A DNA stretch of 39,404 nt from Chloroflexota bacterium (GTDB lineage: Bacteria > Chloroflexota > Limnocylindria > P2-11E), in NCBI GenBank assembly GCA_009692785.1, contig SHYN01000003.1, positions 1 to 39,404 on the forward strand. The letters are read 5' to 3'. Made by a program: the position numbers and the translations under genes. How positions within the stretch are numbered: the first letter of the stretch is position 1; each line of letters opens with the position of its first letter. Below the pieces are notes generated by a model. It was given only the letters and a program-made list of their open reading frames with translations. It had not been told where the DNA came from and made no database searches. Shown here piece after piece: positions 24,896-38,740 of this stretch.

Positions 24896-26397
24896 GACTT
24901 CGCGTGGCCGAGCGCGCGAAGAGCGTCGCGAGCGGTCGCCGCCTCGTCATAGGGCCTCGCCACCTCGCCCGTGATGATCGAGCGCTCATGGCCCTTGCCA
25001 GCGAGCAGCACCGTGTCGCCCGCCTTGGCCTGTCCGATGGCGGACGTCACCGCCGCCACCCGGTCGCCGATGACGAGATAGTCCGTTCCGAGGCGCTTCC
25101 CCGCTTCGCGAGCGCCCGCCGCGATCTCCGCGAGGATGACCTTGGGATCCTCGAGCCGCGGGTCCTCCTCGGTGATGATGAAGAGATCGGCGTGACGCCC
25201 CGCGGCCTGCGCGAGAAGCGGTCGCTTCGCGCGGTCCCGCTCGCCGGCGCTGCCGAAGACCGCGATGAGCCTGCCGGGGGTCAGGGGTCGAAGGAGCGCA
25301 AGCACATTGCCGAGCGCCTCGGGCGTGTGCGCGTAATCGACGATGACAGTGAACGGCTGGCCCTCGGCCACGCGTTCCATGCGCCCGCGGACCGCTCGCG
25401 CCCGCTCCAGTGCCGTTCGCGCGTGAGCGAGGGTCGCCCCGGTCGCGAGCCCCGTCGCGGCGGCAGCGAGCGCGTTGGCGATGTTGAAGCGACCCACGAG
25501 CGGCAGAAAGAACTCGATCCTCTCACTGCCGGTGGCGATCTGGATCCGCGAGCCTTTGGCATCCGCGCTCAACACCGTGCCCTGCACGTCCGCGAGCGCG
25601 TTGAGCCCGTAGGTGATGACGCGCGCGCCGGCCACGCGATCGGCGAGGTAGCGCCAGTGCGGGTCATCCGCATTCAGCACCGCTGCCTTCGCGACGCCTT
25701 TTGCCGGGCCATCGGCAAGCGCCTCGAACAGCAACCCCTTTGCTTCGAGATACCGCTGCAGCGTGCCGTGAAAGTCGAGGTGCTCGGGCGAAAGGTTGGT
25801 GAAGACCGCCACGTCCACCCAGGTGCCACGCAGTTTCTGCAGCGCGAGCGCATGCGAGGTTGCCTCGAGGACCGCCCAGGTGCCACCGGCGACGAGCAGC
25901 TCAGCGCAGAACTCCTGCACCTCGACCGCCTCCTGGGTGCTCTGGCGGGAATCGTTCGACCAGCTCTGCCCGGCGCTCTTGAAATCGACGGTCGTGGCGT
26001 AGCCGGTCGTCTCACCCGCGGCCTCTAGCACATCGGAGATCAGGTGAGTGGTCGTGGTCTTGCCGTCGGTGCCGGTCACGCCGACGACGCGGAGCCGCGC
26101 CGTCGGGTGATCGTAGAGCTCTGCCGCGAGATCCGCGAGACTTGCGCGAGCGTCCTCGGTCACCGCAACGGGCGCGGAGAGGCCCCCGAGCTCGCCCTCC
26201 GCGACGACGGCGACGGCACCACGCGCCACCGCGTCTGCCGCGAACTGCGCGCCGTCGCGGTGGAATCCCGGGATCGCGACGAAGAGCGACCCCGCTCCCG
26301 CCTTGCGCGAGTCGTAGACGATCCGCGCGACCTCGAGATCGGCGGCGCCCGCCGGCGCGGCGAGGCCGCAGGCTCCCAGGAGCGGGCCGAGCCTCAC
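24892..26397 (-). CDS. murE: UDP-N-acetylmuramoyl-tripeptide synthetase MurE
   Basis: IVYDSRKAGAGSLFVAIPGFHRDGAQF, GVTGTDGKTTTTHL, EATSHALALQKLRGTWVDVAVFTNLSPEHLDFHG, IVDYAHTPEAL, GSAGERDRAKRPLLA. Confidence 0.93.
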   Translation of the reverse strand: MRLGPLLGACGLAAPAGAADLEVARIVYDSRKAGAGSLFVAIPGFHRDGAQFAADAVARGAVAVVAEGELGGLSAPVAVTEDARASLADLAAELYDHPTARLRVVGVTGTDGKTTTTHLISDVLEAAGETTGYATTVDFKSAGQSWSNDSRQSTQEAVEVQEFCAELLVAGGTWAVLEATSHALALQKLRGTWVDVAVFTNLSPEHLDFHGTLQRYLEAKGLLFEALADGPAKGVAKAAVLNADDPHWRYLADRVAGARVITYGLNALADVQGTVLSADAKGSRIQIATGSERIEFFLPLVGRFNIANALAAAATGLATGATLAHARTALERARAVRGRMERVAEGQPFTVIVDYAHTPEALGNVLALLRPLTPGRLIAVFGSAGERDRAKRPLLAQAAGRHADLFIITEEDPRLEDPKVILAEIAAGAREAGKRLGTDYLVIGDRVAAVTSAIGQAKAGDTVLLAGKGHERSIITGEVARPYDEAATARDALRALGHAKS

Positions 26398-27413
26398 CGC
26401 TGGCCCGGTCCGCCACGCAGCTGCAGTGCCCGGGTGTAGATCGGCGCGATGGTCCGGTAGGCCCGGTAGGCGAGCGCGCTAGGGGCAACGTCGTGCGCCC
26501 CCGCGAAGCGGAGGTACCGCCCGCCGAACCCTTTCTTGAACAGCGCCGGCCCGTGCATCGGATCGTCGGGCCGCGACGGCTCCAACGGCACGCCACCAAG
26601 GTCGTAGCGGGTGGCGCCGCGGCGCCGAGCGGCGAGGATGCACTCCCATTGAAGAGCGTAGGCAGCGAGCGCCCGCCGACCCGCATCGCTCGTCGCACCG
26701 TACATATAGAGGTCGCGGTCGCCGCAGTGCCAGATCATCGCCGCCGCGACCGCCTGGCCATCCACCTCCGCGAAACGCAGAGTCGCTAGCCCCGCCTCGA
26801 TGAGGGTGGACCAGACGAGGCGGTAGTAGGCCCAGGTCCGCGTGATGAATCCCGCCCGCGCGCCGGTGCCCGCGTAGAGCACATGGAACGACCGGAGATC
26901 CGCGTCGCCCCGCGCGACCCGAATGGACACGCCGCGCTTCGCCTCCTGCCGAATGCTCCATCGCGTGTCCTTGTCGCATCCCGCGAGCAACGCGTCCTCG
27001 GACAGGGCGAGGTCGAGCTCGAGGGTCGCGAGCACCGGCTGCACATCCGGCGCGCGCCGGAAGCCCGCGGCGGCGAAGGCGGGAGCGGCCACCTCGGGCG
27101 CCACCTCCGGATCGACCTTCAGGAACAGCGCGCCGCGTTCGCGCGCGAGCGCGGCAAGGGCCACGAGCGCCGCCGCGAGCCCCCCGGAGGGATCGCCGGT
27201 GGCAAGGACCGGTCCGCGCGGGACGTAGGCCATCGCTTGCCCGAGGACCGTGCGCCAGAGCACGAGCGCCACCGGTAGCGGATCGCCGAACCGCACGTAT
27301 TCGGCGCGCCACCCCTGCGCCTCGCGGATCGTCCCCCAGGCGCTCGATTGCAGCACGTGCCCGCGCGCGGCGCGGACGGCGACCTCATCCCAGCCAGATG
27401 GTGCGGCCGTCAC
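26394..27413 (-). CDS. FemAB/FemX-type peptidoglycan bridge-forming aminoacyltransferase (copy 1)
   Basis: QSSAWGTIREAQGW, AYVPRGPVLATGD, DKDTRWSIRQEAKRGV, LYMYGATSD, YALQWECILAARRRGATRYDLGGVP, FKKGFGG. Confidence 0.9.
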   Translation of the reverse strand: MTAAPSGWDEVAVRAARGHVLQSSAWGTIREAQGWRAEYVRFGDPLPVALVLWRTVLGQAMAYVPRGPVLATGDPSGGLAAALVALAALARERGALFLKVDPEVAPEVAAPAFAAAGFRRAPDVQPVLATLELDLALSEDALLAGCDKDTRWSIRQEAKRGVSIRVARGDADLRSFHVLYAGTGARAGFITRTWAYYRLVWSTLIEAGLATLRFAEVDGQAVAAAMIWHCGDRDLYMYGATSDAGRRALAAYALQWECILAARRRGATRYDLGGVPLEPSRPDDPMHGPALFKKGFGGRYLRFAGAHDVAPSALAYRAYRTIAPIYTRALQLRGGPGQR

Positions 27414-27453
27414 TCCGTTGCCTTCACGCCGACGACGGCGCGGCGCGCCCGCA

Positions 27454-28416
27454 TCACGCGAGTGCGGTCCTCGCGAGGCGGTGCCGTCCCAGCATGCGCC
27501 AGATCGGCCAGAGCAACGGCGTCACCGGCGCCTCGAGCATTCCGACCCAGGTCGCCATCTCGCCGCCAAAGCCTCGCTTGAAGCGCTCCACTCCGGCCAG
27601 GCTGCCGTCCTCGTCGAGGCCCCACATGTCGTAGCGCCGGACGCCGAGCGCGCGCAGGCGGAGCAGTGCCCGCCACTTGAGCAGATGGAACGGCCGATGC
27701 TCGGGCGCGACCCCGCTCCAGCCGCCGTAGAGCTCCCAGGCGCGGTCTCCGAAACGGACGACGAGCAGGGCACCCGCGTCCACGCCATCGACCGTGGCGA
27801 AGAAGAGGTGCAATCGGTCGCCGAAGATCGCACGCAGCGCGCGGAAGTAGGCGGCATCGTGGACCGCAAAGGCATCGCGCGCGGCCACGCGGCGCAAGAC
27901 CCGAACGAAGCGCTCGATATCGTCCGACTCAAGGGTCACCACGCCGGCGCGCTCCGCCTTGTGGATGTACTGACGGGTCTTCTTGGCCATCGCCGCCAGA
28001 AGCTCGCGGGGCTCGGCGGTCAGGCCGATCAGGAGGGTCCGCCGCGGCTGGATGTAGACCGGCGATCGGGCCGCCCCGCTCTGGCTCACCCCGTCGAGCG
28101 TCGCCGCGTCCTCGGGCGCCTCGGGGTCGGCGAGCAGGCAGACCGCGCGCTCGCGGCCGAGCGCCTTCCGCAGCGCCGCGAGCGCGGGCCCGAGCGACGC
28201 CGGCGCGACAAGCGGGCCGCGCGGCACGTACGCGAGGGTGAGCCCGAGCGGGAGCCGGCGCACGAGGACCTGAGCGAGCCCGACGGTGTGGTCGCCCTCG
28301 CGAAGGAGATAGCGCTGGCATTCCCACCCGGCCGCCGCCTTGATCGTGGCCCAACCGGCGGTCTGAAGGAGATGCGGTTCGTCGGCGAGCGCGACGAGCT
28401 CGTCCCAGCGTGCCAC
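27454..28416 (-). CDS. FemAB/FemX-type peptidoglycan bridge-forming aminoacyltransferase (copy 2)
   Basis: QTAGWATIKAAAGWE, AYVPRGPLVAPAS, MAKKTRQYIHKAERAGV, ELYGGWSGV, LLKWRALLRLRALGVRRYDMWGL, FKRGFGG. Confidence 0.9.
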   Translation of the reverse strand: MARWDELVALADEPHLLQTAGWATIKAAAGWECQRYLLREGDHTVGLAQVLVRRLPLGLTLAYVPRGPLVAPASLGPALAALRKALGRERAVCLLADPEAPEDAATLDGVSQSGAARSPVYIQPRRTLLIGLTAEPRELLAAMAKKTRQYIHKAERAGVVTLESDDIERFVRVLRRVAARDAFAVHDAAYFRALRAIFGDRLHLFFATVDGVDAGALLVVRFGDRAWELYGGWSGVAPEHRPFHLLKWRALLRLRALGVRRYDMWGLDEDGSLAGVERFKRGFGGEMATWVGMLEAPVTPLLWPIWRMLGRHRLARTALA

Positions 28417-30961: not shown

Positions 30962-32032
30962 CTAAAGGAGGTCGGGCCGCTCCTCCCGCCGCAGGCGGTC
31001 CACGACCGTCCTGACCTCCTCGGCGCGGTCCCTGGTGGTGATGAGGAGGACGTCCGCGGTGTCCACCACGATCAGATCGGAAACCCCGATGAGGGCTACG
31101 GCCTTGCCGGGGGCCCAGACGAAGTTACCGGGGGCTTCGACCGCGTACTGCTCGGCCTGGGCCCAGCTCCCGGACGAGGCCACGACGTCGGCGAGGCGAG
31201 ACCAGGAGCCGATGTCCTCCCACCCGATATCCGCCGGCACGACCGCGCGGTCCGTGGCCTTCTCGACGATGCCGTAGTCGATCGTCGTGCGGTCGGTCTG
31301 CTCCCAGACCTCGCTCAGAACGGTCTCGTAGCGCTCGCTACCGGCCGCCGCCCCGAGGAGGTCGAGCGCCGCTGCGGTCTTCGGCAGGAATTGCCGATAG
31401 AGCGCAAGGATGGTGGCGACGCGCCAGACGAAGATGCCGGCATTCCAGTAGTGGCCGCCGGCGGCGATCATCCGTTCGGCCTCGGGCACGGCCGGCTTCT
31501 CGATGAACCGGAGGACCTCGCGGACCGGAACGGGAGCATCGACGGCGAGGACGGCGCCGGCATGGATGTAGCCGAGGCCGCCGTCCGCCCGGGTCGGCTC
31601 GATGCCGAGCGTCACGAGGCGCCCCTGCTCCGCGGCGGCGGTCGCGGCGATGAGCACGCTGCGGAAGGCATCGCGCTTCTGGATGAGGTGGTCCGCTGGA
31701 AGCACCGCGACGACGGCCTCCGGGTCAAAGCCATGGAGCACGGCCATCGCGAGGCCGATCGCCGCCGCGTTTCCGCGCGGGTACGGCTCGATGACAAGGT
31801 GATCCGCACGGAGCTCGGGCAGCTGCTCGTGGATGAGCGCGCGATGCTCCGGTGGCGCGACCACAAAGATCCGCTCGTTCGGGATGAAGTCCGCCACGCG
31901 ATCGACGGTTTCCTGGAGCATCGTCCGGCTTCCGGTGAGCTCGAGGAACTGCTTGGGCCTCCCCTGCCGCGAGAGCGGCCAGAGCCGCGTTCCCGCGCCG
32001 CCGGAGAGCACAAGCGCGTAGAGCCGGGGCAT
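30962..32032 (-). CDS. manC: Mannose-1-phosphate guanylyltransferase
   Basis: ALVLSGGAGTRLWPLSRQGRPKQFLEL, VIEPYPRGNAAAIGLA, VLPADHLI, FIEKP, WNAGIFVWR, IDYGIVEKA. Confidence 0.93.
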   Translation of the reverse strand: MPRLYALVLSGGAGTRLWPLSRQGRPKQFLELTGSRTMLQETVDRVADFIPNERIFVVAPPEHRALIHEQLPELRADHLVIEPYPRGNAAAIGLAMAVLHGFDPEAVVAVLPADHLIQKRDAFRSVLIAATAAAEQGRLVTLGIEPTRADGGLGYIHAGAVLAVDAPVPVREVLRFIEKPAVPEAERMIAAGGHYWNAGIFVWRVATILALYRQFLPKTAAALDLLGAAAGSERYETVLSEVWEQTDRTTIDYGIVEKATDRAVVPADIGWEDIGSWSRLADVVASSGSWAQAEQYAVEAPGNFVWAPGKAVALIGVSDLIVVDTADVLLITTRDRAEEVRTVVDRLRREERPDLL

Positions 32033-33239: not shown

Positions 33240-35762
33240 TCAATAGGATCTGGTCTGCGTGGTCGGGCTGATGATGTTGCCGTTCGCGTCGGCCACATTT
33301 CGGACCGCCACAAGGTAGGCGCCGGTACCGCCGGGCGCGGGTGCCGAGGGGTTGTAGTTCGAAGTGTACCCGCCTGTGCCGACGCAGGTCACCGTCCAGA
33401 CCGTGCCACCGGTGGTCGAGTTGATCGACGGGATCCCGACCGTGCAGAGGGTGCCGAAGGTCCCGTTGTTGAGCGAGTAGTTCACGATGTTGCCCGCCGA
33501 GTTGGTGGGGCTGGAGCCCCCCGTCATCGCCTTGCTGAACGTGACGCTGAACGAGTCGCCCGAGATGTAGGTCGCGCCGGTGAACGAGGGGGCCGTGGTG
33601 TCGGCATAGGACACGGTCACCGTGGTGGGGTTCGGACTCAACAGGTTGCCGGCCGGATCGGTGACCGAGAGGACGACGAGCGTGTAGGTGCCGCCGCCGA
33701 GGGTCGTGCCGGTCGTGAAGTTGACGCAGCGGCCGTCGGTGGAGACGTTGTAGTTGTTCGCGGCGTTCCTCGTCGAGCTGAGGGCGATGACCGCTCCGCC
33801 AGACGCGGTGAATGAATAATTCGCCGTGTTCGAGGCGGTCGTGTTCGACTGGAACGCGCCGGGCGCCGCGGTCACCGAAGCGAACATCGACTTGCTGTAG
33901 CAGACCGAGAGCGTGGTGGCCGAGGTCGAAGCGCTTGCCACGGTCAGGGCAGCCGTGTCCGAGCTGTCAGACACCGTGATGAGGGCCGGGTTCGGGTTGA
34001 GGGCGTTGCCGGCCTGATCGAGGAGGTTGTTCGCGGAAAGCGTGTACTGACAGCCATTCGCGAGAAGAGCGCTCAGCGTGAGGCGCACTCCGCGAAGCTC
34101 CCAGCGCTCGTCGGTGTCATCGGTGAGCGCGCCGACCGGCGGCGAACTCACCACCGTGATCGCGGTCGTGCCGCCCGAGGCGCAGCTCGTCGTCGCGGAG
34201 GAGCCATCCGGGTTCGCAAGGGTGTAGTTGGCGGAGTTGTCGATCGCATTCGTCGCACCCCAGCCCGCGGTCGTGCGCATGCCCTCGCTGAACGTCACGA
34301 GGATGTTCTGCAGGTAGGCCGCGCCGGTCCCGGCACTCGCGAGGTTCGTGTCGGCTCGCCGTGCCAATGCAGAGACGACGCTGGGACGCGTGGCGTCGGA
34401 GGGCACCGTGATGCTGAACGAGGTCGGGCTCGGCGAGATCGCGAGGCCCGCGGCGTCGGTGACGCCGGAGATGTCGAGCGAGTGCACGCCCACCGCGGTC
34501 AGGCCGGTCCCGGTGTTGAAGGCGAGTCGCACCTGGCGATTCAGGCCCGCGGTCGAGCCGCGCAGGGTCAGGATGCCGGGGAAGCTGGCCGAGTCCCACT
34601 TGAAGTTGGAGGCAATCGCCGTGGCGGGAGTCAGCGCCTCACTGAAGGTCACGATGACCTCCTGCGTGCCCGGCTGCGTAAAGCCGCTCGCGGTCGGCAC
34701 CGTGGAGTCCGTCGCGGTGAACGAGAACGTGCTGGCCGCGGCGATCGCATTGCCAGCGGAGTCGCTGACGGTGCTCACCGTCAGGCTGTAAGTCGAGTTG
34801 GCGACGAAGGTCGCGGTGTCGAGGACGAAGAGCACGCACCTGCCGTCGGCGCTCGCGACGAGCGAGCTGGCCGGCTGACCCGTCCCGGTCTGCGTGCCGA
34901 GCGTGATGCTCGAGAGCGTGTAGCTGCCGATGGCCGTGATGGACCCCGTGCCGGTCGTCGCCATCACCTTGCTGTAGCAGACGTTCATGCGCTTGAGACC
35001 CTGGGCGGTGTCGACGCTCTGGATGGTCGGAGCACCGGTGTCGACCGTGTAGCTGAACACGTTCGAGGTGCCCTGACCGGGTGCGGTCGCGGTGAGCGAG
35101 TGGGCTCCCGCGGTGAGCGCGGTGGTGAGGCAGGCGAACGTGCCCGTCAGGGTGGCGGTCGTCGTGCAGAGGACGGCCGAGCCTTCCTGCACGGTCACCG
35201 TGCTCAGCGCGGTCGCGCCGGTGCCGGAGATCGACGGCGTCGTGGTCGTGGAAGGGCTCGCGGGCGACGAGGCCGTGATCTGGAGCGTCGAGGCGATGAC
35301 CGTCACCACCTGGAAATACCCATAGTCCTCGAGCGGAGCGCCGCCGGCCCACTCGAGCCCGGTGAACTGCTGCGCGCCCTGAGGAGCGTTCGCGGGAACC
35401 TGGACGTTGTAGATGAAGAAGCCCACCTGCCCGGGGGCGACGAGGTCGCTGGCCTGATTCGCGTAGATGGTCGGGGCGGTCCAGTTCACCGCCCAGCCAG
35501 CGGCCGACAGGAGCGAATTGCCACGCGTCCGGAGCGAGGCCTGCGCCACGGCGTCGCCCTTCACCCAGGCGAGATCACCGGTGTTCCCGTAGCCGACCGC
35601 GAACTGTCCGGTCTGCCCGGGAGCGAGGGACAGGAACGAGCTCTCGGAGAAGTAGGCGCCGTGGTAGCCGGGCGCCGACAAGGCCGGCGCCGAAAGGGAG
35701 AGCATGCCGAAGGCCAGAGCGCTCACGACGGCTCCGTTCAACAGGATCCTCTTCATTCGCAC
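33240..35762 (-). CDS. Large secreted protein: signal peptide, NBR1/FW-like N-terminal module, tandem SbsA/SwmB-type Ig-like repeats
   Basis: Signal-like N-terminus ending APALSAPGYHGAYFSESSFLSLAPGQTGQFAVGYGNTGDLAWVKG; repeated TFSEAL/TFSEGM/CYSKVM/CYSKSM/TFSKAM ... VTDxAGN cores. Confidence 0.88.
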   Translation of the reverse strand: MRMKRILLNGAVVSALAFGMLSLSAPALSAPGYHGAYFSESSFLSLAPGQTGQFAVGYGNTGDLAWVKGDAVAQASLRTRGNSLLSAAGWAVNWTAPTIYANQASDLVAPGQVGFFIYNVQVPANAPQGAQQFTGLEWAGGAPLEDYGYFQVVTVIASTLQITASSPASPSTTTTPSISGTGATALSTVTVQEGSAVLCTTTATLTGTFACLTTALTAGAHSLTATAPGQGTSNVFSYTVDTGAPTIQSVDTAQGLKRMNVCYSKVMATTGTGSITAIGSYTLSSITLGTQTGTGQPASSLVASADGRCVLFVLDTATFVANSTYSLTVSTVSDSAGNAIAAASTFSFTATDSTVPTASGFTQPGTQEVIVTFSEALTPATAIASNFKWDSASFPGILTLRGSTAGLNRQVRLAFNTGTGLTAVGVHSLDISGVTDAAGLAISPSPTSFSITVPSDATRPSVVSALARRADTNLASAGTGAAYLQNILVTFSEGMRTTAGWGATNAIDNSANYTLANPDGSSATTSCASGGTTAITVVSSPPVGALTDDTDERWELRGVRLTLSALLANGCQYTLSANNLLDQAGNALNPNPALITVSDSSDTAALTVASASTSATTLSVCYSKSMFASVTAAPGAFQSNTTASNTANYSFTASGGAVIALSSTRNAANNYNVSTDGRCVNFTTGTTLGGGTYTLVVLSVTDPAGNLLSPNPTTVTVSYADTTAPSFTGATYISGDSFSVTFSKAMTGGSSPTNSAGNIVNYSLNNGTFGTLCTVGIPSINSTTGGTVWTVTCVGTGGYTSNYNPSAPAPGGTGAYLVAVRNVADANGNIISPTTQTRSY

Positions 35763-35999: not shown

Positions 36000-36827
36000 G
36001 TGGCGACAACCGCCGCGGTCCCCGACGAGCGTCGTGAAACCGTCGCCGCGGTCCGGCTCCTCGCAACCGAGGTGGGACCTCGCGACGAGGCGATGGGACT
36101 GCTGCTGGGGCGCTTCGCCGAGGCTGTCGAAGAGCGGCGCCCCGACGAGGCCAAGGCCTACGCGGCGGTGCTCGAGCCGCGGGTCATCGCGGAGTCGCTG
36201 CTCGGCGGCACGTCCGGGATCTGGAGCGTGTTCGAGGTGGCGAGGAACGTCGTGATCTTCCTTCCCATCGCCGTGACCTGGTACGGGCTCGCCACCGCGA
36301 GCGCCGGTTACGCGGAGCTGCTCACAAAGGATCCCAGCCTCGCCGGGCTGCCGTTCCTGCTCCTCTGGCAGGAGAGCTTCCGTGGCGCCGGTTCGGTCAT
36401 CAGCTTCAGCACCCTCGCGACGATCGACGCCAGCCTCATCGGCCTCCTCATCGCGCTCTCGCTCGCGCTCAACGCCCACAGCGAGGTGCGCGACACGCGG
36501 CTCCGGTCGCGCATCCTGCTGCGCGAATCGGAGATCCGCGGCCTGGTCGGCCACGCCCTGAGCCTGGCCAGCACCTCGGACCTGGACGCGGTCGAGTCGG
36601 GGGCGGTCCTGGATCAGATGATCGCCGAGGAGCGGCGGATCTACGAAAGGGCCCGCGAGGGCGAGCAGCAGCTGTTCCAGCTCGAGGCCGCCGTCGGCGA
36701 GCTTCGCCAGGCGGCCATGGAGCTGACGCGAGCCGCCGGCGCACTGAACGCCCGCATCGACCTGCCCTCGAGCCACGAGCGCCCGCCATCCACCGCGGCC
36801 GGTCGGACCGGCCAGGACCCCAGGTGA
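36000..36827 (+). CDS. Membrane protein with TolQ/ExbB/MotA-like topology and C-terminal coiled coil
   Basis: GTG start with upstream GGAGGAG; TM NVVIFLPIAVTWYGLATASAGYAEL, TM ISFSTLATIDASLIGLLIALSLALN, heptad-like helical tail. Family assignment is inference. Confidence 0.65.
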   Translation: MATTAAVPDERRETVAAVRLLATEVGPRDEAMGLLLGRFAEAVEERRPDEAKAYAAVLEPRVIAESLLGGTSGIWSVFEVARNVVIFLPIAVTWYGLATASAGYAELLTKDPSLAGLPFLLLWQESFRGAGSVISFSTLATIDASLIGLLIALSLALNAHSEVRDTRLRSRILLRESEIRGLVGHALSLASTSDLDAVESGAVLDQMIAEERRIYERAREGEQQLFQLEAAVGELRQAAMELTRAAGALNARIDLPSSHERPPSTAAGRTGQDPR

Positions 36828-36838
36828 ACGACAGCTAG

Positions 36839-37336
36839 GTGCTCGGAGCGAACCGAGGCGTCAGCATCTCGCTCGTCGGCTGGCTCTGGGCTGACATCCT
36901 CCTGGGCCTGTTCGTCATCTTCCTTGCCGCATCGAGCGCACCGACGCCGGTGGTGAAGGCGACCCCGACGCCCAGCGCGTCGGCGAGCGCGACCTCCGCC
37001 CCGGGCATCGACCCACAGCCGTTCACCCTGGCGCGATTCCCGGTGAACGGGGCGTCGCTGCTCAGCAACGATCCGGTGCTCGTGGCCGCAGAGCAGCAGC
37101 GGATCGCAACGGAGCTCAGCGCGAAGCTCGCCGCGGCTCAGCCGGGTCGGCGGGCGGCCATGGTCCTTGCTTACGGCGCACACGAGGATCCGGTTCAGGG
37201 CGATCGTCTCGTGCGAGCGGCGACCCAGGGTCTCCGCTCGGGTCCGTTCGACGGCTCGACGATCAAGACGTATCACGAGCTCGTCACCGGTGACCGTGGA
37301 AGCACGATCACGGTGGAGGTGTACCTCTATCGATAG
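36839..37336 (+). CDS. Single-TM protein with TolR/ExbD/MotB-like layout and C-terminal globular (possibly OmpA-like) domain
   Basis: ISLVGWLWADILLGLFVIFLAASS with an Asp inside the TM, Pro/Ala/Ser linker, then beta-alpha-beta-type domain (AAMVLAYGAHEDPVQGDRLVRAATQGL...STITVEVYLYR). Confidence 0.65.
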   Translation: MLGANRGVSISLVGWLWADILLGLFVIFLAASSAPTPVVKATPTPSASASATSAPGIDPQPFTLARFPVNGASLLSNDPVLVAAEQQRIATELSAKLAAAQPGRRAAMVLAYGAHEDPVQGDRLVRAATQGLRSGPFDGSTIKTYHELVTGDRGSTITVEVYLYR

Positions 37337-37343
37337 CCAGGGC

Positions 37344-38345
37344 GTGGGTGGCGTCGGGCCCACGACTCCGCCGGATCTGGCGGAGGGTCTCCTCACCGCG
37401 CGTCGCTCGATGCTTGGCCGCGCGCTCCGGTCCGGTTCGGCCGCAGCCGTTGCCCGGGCCGCAGCCCGCCTGCGACTTCGCACCGCCGAGCTCGAGCCGA
37501 CCGACGCCTCCGCCGCGCGGCGGGCGACCATGCGACTCGGACACCTTCTCCGCGAGGAGCGTTTTCGGCGACGCGTCGTGACGCCCGCGACGACCGGGGG
37601 CAGGGTCACCTCAAGCCGGCTCCGACCACGGTCCTCCCCGGTCCCCCGACTCCTTCGCGCGTTGACGCTCGCGAGCGTCGTGCTGCTGGCCGCAGCCGCG
37701 ATCGCGTCCGCCTGGCCGAGACCCGACGCGCGCCGCGGCGCACCGGTCGGCGGACCGGCGGACGAGCCGGCGGTGGGCGCGAGCGTCGCGTCGCTCACCT
37801 CACCCCCACCGGCGAGCACCGCCGAGCCGGCGCCGTTCGCTCTTCCGGTGACCCTCGGCCTCACCGGCATCACGAGCCCGACCTATGTCGCTCCCGTGGT
37901 GCCGATCCGCACCTCCGCGCCCGCGCCGCCCACCGCGGCACCCGGGCCTGCCGCGCCACAGCCGGGTGGCAGAGTTGGAGGCGGAGGACCCCCGCCGACG
38001 GCCACACCCCCACCAGCGCCGAGCTCGGCGGTCTTTCTCCCAGCGAACGGTCTCGTCGGCCTGCGGCCGCTGCAGCCGGGCGAGCGGCGCTGGCAGGGGC
38101 TTGTCGTGGGAGCCGATGGACTGGCCATCGCGGACGTCTGCATCGAGATCGGGCCGCGCTCGTGCCAACCGATCTCGTCGCGCTCCGACTCATTCGGGTC
38201 GTGGTACTTCGATCTCCCCGCGATCGCGCTCATCTGGGACGTGCGCTTCGTGAAGGCCGGCTACACGACCATCACCATGCAGATCAACTCCGGAGCCAAC
38301 GCGCAGAGCCTCATGGTCATCCGCCTCGCGAAGAGCACGCCGTGA
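37344..38345 (+). CDS. Single-TM protein with Pro-rich extracytoplasmic linker and C-terminal carboxypeptidase-regulatory-like domain
   Basis: Basic N-terminal region, TM LLRALTLASVVLLAAAAIASAW, long Pro/Ala/Gly-rich linker, VVGADGLAIADVCIEIG...SDSFGSWYFDLP...VRFVKAGYTTITMQI. GTG start 37344 inferred. Confidence 0.65.
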   Translation: MGGVGPTTPPDLAEGLLTARRSMLGRALRSGSAAAVARAAARLRLRTAELEPTDASAARRATMRLGHLLREERFRRRVVTPATTGGRVTSSRLRPRSSPVPRLLRALTLASVVLLAAAAIASAWPRPDARRGAPVGGPADEPAVGASVASLTSPPPASTAEPAPFALPVTLGLTGITSPTYVAPVVPIRTSAPAPPTAAPGPAAPQPGGRVGGGGPPPTATPPPAPSSAVFLPANGLVGLRPLQPGERRWQGLVVGADGLAIADVCIEIGPRSCQPISSRSDSFGSWYFDLPAIALIWDVRFVKAGYTTITMQINSGANAQSLMVIRLAKSTP

Positions 38346-38356
38346 TCGCTCCGTAA

Positions 38357-38740
38357 GTGGCCGCGCTAGGCGTTCGCCTCGCGGCGCCACACGTCGAAAC
38401 GCTGCTCGATGCGCTGGCGACACGTGACGCCGCGGTCGCGGATTTCGCGCGGGTGTTCCGGGGGGCGGACGTCATCGTCACGGTCTCGCGCACCTCGACG
38501 GCGCCGCGACTCGACCAGCCCCGCGCGCCGCGCTCGACCGACTCGATATCGGACCTCCTGCGGGCGGCCGCGAATCTGGCGGGCCTCCCAGGCGTGAGCT
38601 TCCCCTGCGGCCTCGCGACCGACGGACTGCCGGTCGGCCTGCAGCTCATTGGGCCGGCCCGCTCGGAGCCGCTGCTCCTCGCCATCGCGAGCGCTTATCA
38701 GCGCGCGACGGACCACCATCTGCGGCGGCCGCCGGTCTGA
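38357..38740 (+). pseudogene. C-terminal fragment of an amidase / GatA-like protein
   Basis: AAANLAGLPGVSFPCGLATDGLPVGLQLIGPARSEPLLLAIASAYQRATDHH matches the amidase-signature C-terminus; catalytic Ser-Ser-Lys region absent. Confidence 0.78.

Follow-up and report, generated by a model that had tools for sequence, protein, structure and literature searches.

The window analyzed here, a stretch of 39,404 nucleotides from a Chloroflexota MAG (66.8% complete), carries at positions 36000-38345 three genes on the same strand, hereafter g1 (36000..36827, plus strand; 275 aa), g2 (36839..37336, plus strand; 165 aa), and g3 (37344..38345, plus strand; 333 aa), which are separated by gaps of 11 nt and 7 nt. 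All three genes start with GTG, and their third-position GC (GC3; 0.91, 0.83, and 0.83, respectively) is the coding signature of the genome. The first-pass annotation of the window had pointed to three closely spaced ORFs in this arrangement; the coordinates and gaps match that description, and each of the genes has conserved homologs. Searches of Pfam, NCBIfam, and PADLOC identified no family covering g1, g2, or g3, no matches to named plasmids were found, and a scan for sigma-70 promoters, which is uninformative at this GC, detected none. As argued below, we consider g1 a putative A (channel/wheel) subunit, g2 a putative B (axle) subunit, and g3 a putative output arm.

Directly after g3, the plus strand encodes 127 aa from the C-terminus of an amidase/GatA-type protein (38357-38740; PF01425 positions 347-445); the N-terminal part is missing, and the ORF looks like a gene remnant. 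Elsewhere in the window, there are a gene for a GDP-mannose-type nucleotidyltransferase (30962-32032) and, on the minus strand (26394-28416), two neighboring FemAB-family genes beside a Mur ligase gene, a grouping that points to peptidoglycan bridge synthesis.

The two-helix membrane protein g1

The predicted g1 protein consists of a cytoplasmic helical N-terminal domain (residues 7-85), TM1 (88-110), an amphipathic outer segment (PFLLLW..GF, 118-128), and TM2 (136-158), which in the AF2 model (pLDDT 87) continues into cytoplasmic helices up to residue 253. Hydropathy indicates two TM helices, in agreement with the AlphaFold helices at 88-110 and from 136 onward, so that of the two to three TMs originally proposed, two are retained and the third is dropped.

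Across 58 g1 cores, the invariant or nearly invariant positions are R82, P89, T93, W94, A100, Y104, F119, W123, F127, A140, and D143, the last of which is present in 97% of the cores; TM1 carries T93, A100, and Y104, and TM2 carries D143 and S/T154. In each TM helix, the conserved positions are restricted to a single face, as measured by the conservation moment at 100 degrees in comparison with shuffles: for TM1, the moment is 0.54 (mean of the shuffles, 0.20), and none of 5000 shuffles was as high (p<0.0002); for TM2, it is 0.38 (mean of the shuffles, 0.15; p=0.0006). The conserved faces are centered on T93 in TM1 and S/T154 in TM2, with D143 also located on the TM2 face. T93 and S/T154 are each set back by about 5 residues from the cytoplasmic end of their helix, and Asp19 of g2 (see below) is 7 residues in, such that, if both proteins are oriented N-in, the three positions would lie at a similar depth close to the cytoplasm.

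The label TolQ/MotA-like initially attached to g1 holds as an analogy at most. There is no Pfam match of g1 to PF01618 (MotA/TolQ/ExbB), a profile that does find other Chloroflexota MotA genes; hhalign of g1 with Chloroflexota MotA gives a probability of 0.2%; the g1 profile has no significant match among PDB sequences; and Foldseek with the g1 model yields a best E of 0.19, with ExbB only among the noise. Matches of the full g1 alignment to spike and hemagglutinin constructs were rejected as coiled-coil artefacts. Members of PF01618 have three or four TM helices, two of which line the pore; g1, with its two TMs, departs from this plan, although its TM pair carries polar residues on conserved faces.

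By analogy of topology, GldL is a closer match for g1 than TolQ or MotA. An A subunit with just two TMs has a precedent in GldL, whose TM2 carries a strictly conserved acid (E49; D143 in g1); in both proteins, TM1 runs in-out and TM2 out-in, and a cytoplasmic helical tail follows (PMC8986121). The sequence-family test for GldL and GldM in Pfam gave no GldL match and one stray match to GldM_1st (E 0.03). The g1-g2 pair differs from GldL-GldM in the phylum and in the partners, and in that g2 combines a TM Asp with a probably OmpA-like domain in place of the GldM periplasmic domains.

The Asp-bearing protein g2 and the third protein g3

The g2 protein starts with a short N-in tail followed by a single TM helix (residues 12-30; GWLWADILLGLFVIFL) that includes the buried Asp19 (codon gac, 36893..36895, plus strand), the predicted ion-carrying residue; next come a linker rich in Pro, Ala, Ser, and Thr (35-56) and an outer domain (57-165). 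The TM contains the motif GWLWAD (GWLxAD in the family; G14, W15, L16, A18, D19), of which G14, W15, A18, and D19 are invariant in 52 of the 52 rows of the g2 alignment, and the Asp singled out at first pass is thus conserved throughout. When the position of Asp19 was left open in a scan, 44 of the 45 distinct segments had D there; the remaining one, in L096, is not located near g1.

In the AlphaFold model of g2 (pLDDT 88), one long TM helix is followed by a disordered linker and a beta-alpha-beta-alpha-beta-beta domain, so that the earlier description of one TM with a buried Asp, a Pro/Ala/Ser linker, and a compact C-terminal domain is recovered in both sequence and model. This succession is the strand-helix order of the OmpA/MotB fold. 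Foldseek matched the g2 model to the OmpA C-terminal domain 4rha with a probability of 1.00 and a TMt of 0.53, at an E of only 9e-3; the OmpA matches have probabilities of 0.98-1.00, none of them reaches E<=0.001, and Rid-family proteins score alike. Because of this E value and the comparable Rid-family scores, we regard an OmpA/MotB-like fold of the modelled outer domain as probable rather than certain; peptidoglycan-binding residues, sought in the g2 alignment, could not be identified.

A profile of 29 g2 sequences, compared with the whole PDB with targets not preselected, has E. coli ExbD as the best match (E=0.011) and Serratia ExbD as the next motor protein, and in a repeat search with a 25-sequence profile, E. 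coli ExbD was again the best (E=0.013). In the profile searches of the PDB, Asp19 aligns with Asp25 of ExbD, which is an essential residue (PMC12905483). With the TM of g2 as the only query, four PDB matches at E<=10 were obtained, three of which are B subunits (ZorB 8qyd and ExbD twice) with the Asp aligned; the TM profile of g3, used as a negative control, matches no such B subunits. Because block-shuffled TM segments score similarly, reaching about 11 bits, with MotB below the best shuffles, the TM-only scores are not proof, and the evidence lies in the enrichment rather than in single scores. At the level of family profiles, hhalign of g2 with Chloroflexota MotB is not significant (2.7%), and the g2 homologs have no match to ExbD, MotB_plug, or OmpA in Pfam. 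Thus, of the features expected of a B subunit, g2 has the single N-terminal TM with the invariant Asp and lacks a significant family-profile match, the best being that to ExbD in the PDB (E 0.011-0.013). The PDB searches and the model support a resemblance of g2 to the B subunit of an ion-driven motor, and the designation TolR/MotB-like is well taken given the alignment of the invariant TM Asp with ExbD Asp25 and the OmpA/MotB-like order of strands and helices.

Some g2 homologs have additional outer regions. In those of family f76 (L150-L177), the TM helix is followed by very long repeats rich in Ala, Thr, and Gln, which suggests an extended outer rod, and five others (L083, L087, L089, L091, L093) have an extra beta-rich domain (GSFTF...W.C) between the TM and the C-terminal domain. 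One g2 homolog weakly matches BACON_2 (E 0.015).

The g3 protein comprises an Arg-rich, helical-looking cytoplasmic domain of about 100 residues (1-102) that was absent from the initial description, a TM (103-121), a Pro/Gly-rich linker (122-240), and a CarboxypepD_reg-like outer domain (~245-333). The one TM, long Pro-rich linker, and carboxypeptidase-regulatory-like domain noted earlier are present, with CarboxypepD_reg matched in 3 of 14 g3 homologs (best 2e-6); Cys 266 and Cys 274 of the outer domain are kept in 13 of the 14. It accompanies the pair as a third protein and, with its one TM and Pro-rich linker, recalls TonB and TolA; to this extent, the name TonB-like is apt. The likeness does not extend to the cytoplasmic domain or to the outer domain: the g3 proteins have no match to the TonB C-terminal domain, and the TonB-receptor plug domain is found in none of the 28 genomes of the window's family. 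In L079, the gene that precedes g1 was compared by hhalign with the N-terminal domain of g3, and a relationship between the two was rejected.

Conservation of the pair in Chloroflexota

Beyond the window, g1 was identified in 14 genomes from its family and order (E<=1e-9 or better; full length or pieces). Where the contig reaches far enough, g2 comes after g1, within a few bases or overlapping it, and is followed by a g3-type gene, which is present as a tandem duplicate in L023 and L024. A class-wide search for g2 recovered the same genomes as the g1 search and, in addition, G439, which has a divergent g1 beside g2; no genome of the class had a g2 match without an adjacent match to g1. G020 is the single case in the family of a g1 that lacks a g2, and there the contig stops at the end of g1.

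Relatives detected with the g1 profile occur in 29 of 400 sampled Chloroflexota genomes and, by class, in 18 of the 47 genomes of one and 30 of the 158 of another. At roughly 320-700 aa, the g1 proteins of distant relatives exceed the window's g1 in length, and they have long coiled tails; most of the distant g1 genes read are followed by a gene for a GWLFADLLLGL protein. In the species collection, an alignment-based scan yielded 13 Chloroflexi MAG loci and a single-protein scan yielded none; all the matches are titled 'Chloroflexi' or 'Chloroflexota bacterium'. Judging by sequence, the g1-g2 pair is widespread in Chloroflexota. The co-occurrence on which the first-pass annotation had staked its proposal is apparent in all same-family and same-order relatives with enough contig and in most of the distant loci read.

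Second, more divergent copies of g1 are present in large-genome Chloroflexota (L141, L145-L148), with no GWLFAD partner in the DNA examined. A role as the general gliding motor of filamentous Chloroflexota is unlikely because the family is absent from two closed genomes of genus g71 (inferred to be Chloroflexus). PF01618 is found in none of the 28 genomes of the window's family.

A predicted ion-driven motor and competing readings

The best reading of these observations, to which we assign a probability of roughly 0.6, is that g1-g2 works like a 5:2-type ion-driven membrane motor of an uncharacterised Chloroflexota branch, a function predicted from sequences and models. The pair would work like ExbBD, ZorAB, and GldLM, yet is not placeable in those families: because tests for PF01618, ExbD, Zorya, and GldLM found defining features missing, we file it in none of them. 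The combination of a multi-TM and a single-TM gene, the latter with its TM Asp aligned to ExbD Asp25, likens the pair to ExbB-ExbD and TolQ-TolR, and the Thr in both TMs of g1 recalls Thr148 and Thr181 of ExbB (PMC12905483); in contrast, g1 has two TMs, and the outer domain of g2 is modelled as OmpA-like and is unmatched to ExbD. With MotB, g2 shares the layout of TM Asp, linker, and, probably, OmpA-like domain, whereas the hhalign results, the lack of a flagellar context, and the absence of MotA from all 28 genomes of the family separate the pair from MotA-MotB.

Under the motor reading, the g1 oligomer would form a wheel around the axle of a g2 dimer, an ion would be passed between Asp19 of g2 and polar residues of g1, and protonation would drive relative movement, with the outer domain of g2 anchored by the wall; ions admitted to the cell would in this way power motion in the envelope. 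Docked at the g1 side, g3 could transmit the movement or a conformational signal to a polysaccharide or surface layer. The machine would probably be engaged in envelope work tied to surface glycans in the window's lineage, and in other Chloroflexota, the same pair might serve NTP-dependent regulatory or defense-like operons.

In some large-genome lineages, DO-GTPase2 and GAP1-N2/GAP1-M genes immediately precede distant g1-g2 pairs, as in L084 (2158-6532) and L087 (1704-6068); in L082 (1492-4701), GAP1-N2 alone was matched directly upstream. A PP2C phosphatase gene (L080) and a gene for a kinase-like protein (L079) also occur upstream of distant g1. Kaur et al. 2020 (PMC7159879) defined GAP1-N2 within predicted membrane-proximal conflict systems, which often carry SLATT 2TM pore effectors; the word MotA is absent from that paper, and its passages drawn on here describe no pair of the g1-g2 type. 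This association raises the possibility of a static or signaling membrane complex in which g1 would be a pore or two-TM effector comparable to the SLATT and retron-Ec48 2TM effectors and g2 its gating partner, with no rotary or ion-driven work. The weak match of 4 of the 58 g1 cores to the retron Ec48 2TM effector model (best E 0.011) points in the same direction. We nevertheless consider this option unlikely: an effector would be expected to vary around a constant core, whereas the pair persists in many lineages that lack GTPase genes, including the window's family, where none of the conflict-system genes was found (GAP1-N2 in 0 of 28 genomes), and the invariant TM Asp of the second subunit, along with its alignment to ExbD Asp25, would be left unexplained.

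In several members of the family, the trio is found near genes for an ABC-2 permease, a Wzt_C-type ATPase, a glycosyltransferase, a methyltransferase, and a Wzy-type ligase; in genus g7, the neighbors differ from this glycan set in most cases. The export, glycosyltransferase, and ligase neighbors, the adhesive-looking CarboxypepD_reg domain of g3, and the FemAB and Mur ligase genes located 8-11 kb from the trio in the window would all be compatible with g1-g2-g3 serving as the passive scaffold, extending from the cytoplasm to the wall, of a complex that assembles cell-surface glycans or an S-layer. We find this improbable: a scaffold has no need for a buried invariant Asp or for conserved polar faces of TM1 and TM2, and one genus (L028-L030, L033) has the trio without glycan neighbors.

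The least credible option, that g1-g2 is a divergent ZorAB that senses phage-induced envelope stress, draws on the ZorB TM among the four matches of the g2 TM profile, the alignment of the motif YADLM...FLV with FADLL...FLA, the probably OmpA-like outer domain, and the coiled cytoplasmic tails of 400-600 aa in distant g1 relatives, which resemble the elongated ZorA tail (PMC11890865), but the tail of the window's g1 is short, the PADLOC models of ZorA and ZorB match neither g1 and g2 nor 29 g2 homologs, and the neighborhood is a different one, in which, as the initial annotation had remarked when raising Zorya as an alternative, there is no ZorC/D/E-like gene, the only matches to PADLOC models being the housekeeping TopA and DprA.

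The motor reading can be taken a step further, to a proposal that we offer as a tentative one: a separate motor class present across Chloroflexota, with a two-TM GldL-like wheel that has an acid of its own and an Asp-bearing, MotB/ZorB-like axle of the OmpA type, which in some lineages would act on the envelope or on glycans and in others would be the membrane motor within GAP1-N2/DO-GTPase conflict systems. Should this be the case, a mostly uncultured environmental phylum owns an ion-powered machine missed by current profile libraries, and its siting beside GAP1-N2/DO-GTPase genes gives these predicted conflict systems a concrete membrane device. The hybrid design would also bear on the kinship of the flagellar stator, Ton, Tol, gliding, and Zorya motors, among which a 2025 survey (PMC12505986) treats ZorAB and GldLM as remote homologs still to be placed.

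Transcribed divergently from g1, on the minus strand (33240..35762), is a gene for a secreted protein of 840 aa with Ig-like (Big_13) repeats, a possible envelope partner of the trio. Pieces of the N-terminal region of this protein match sequence near g1 in three other loci (L021, L023, L031).
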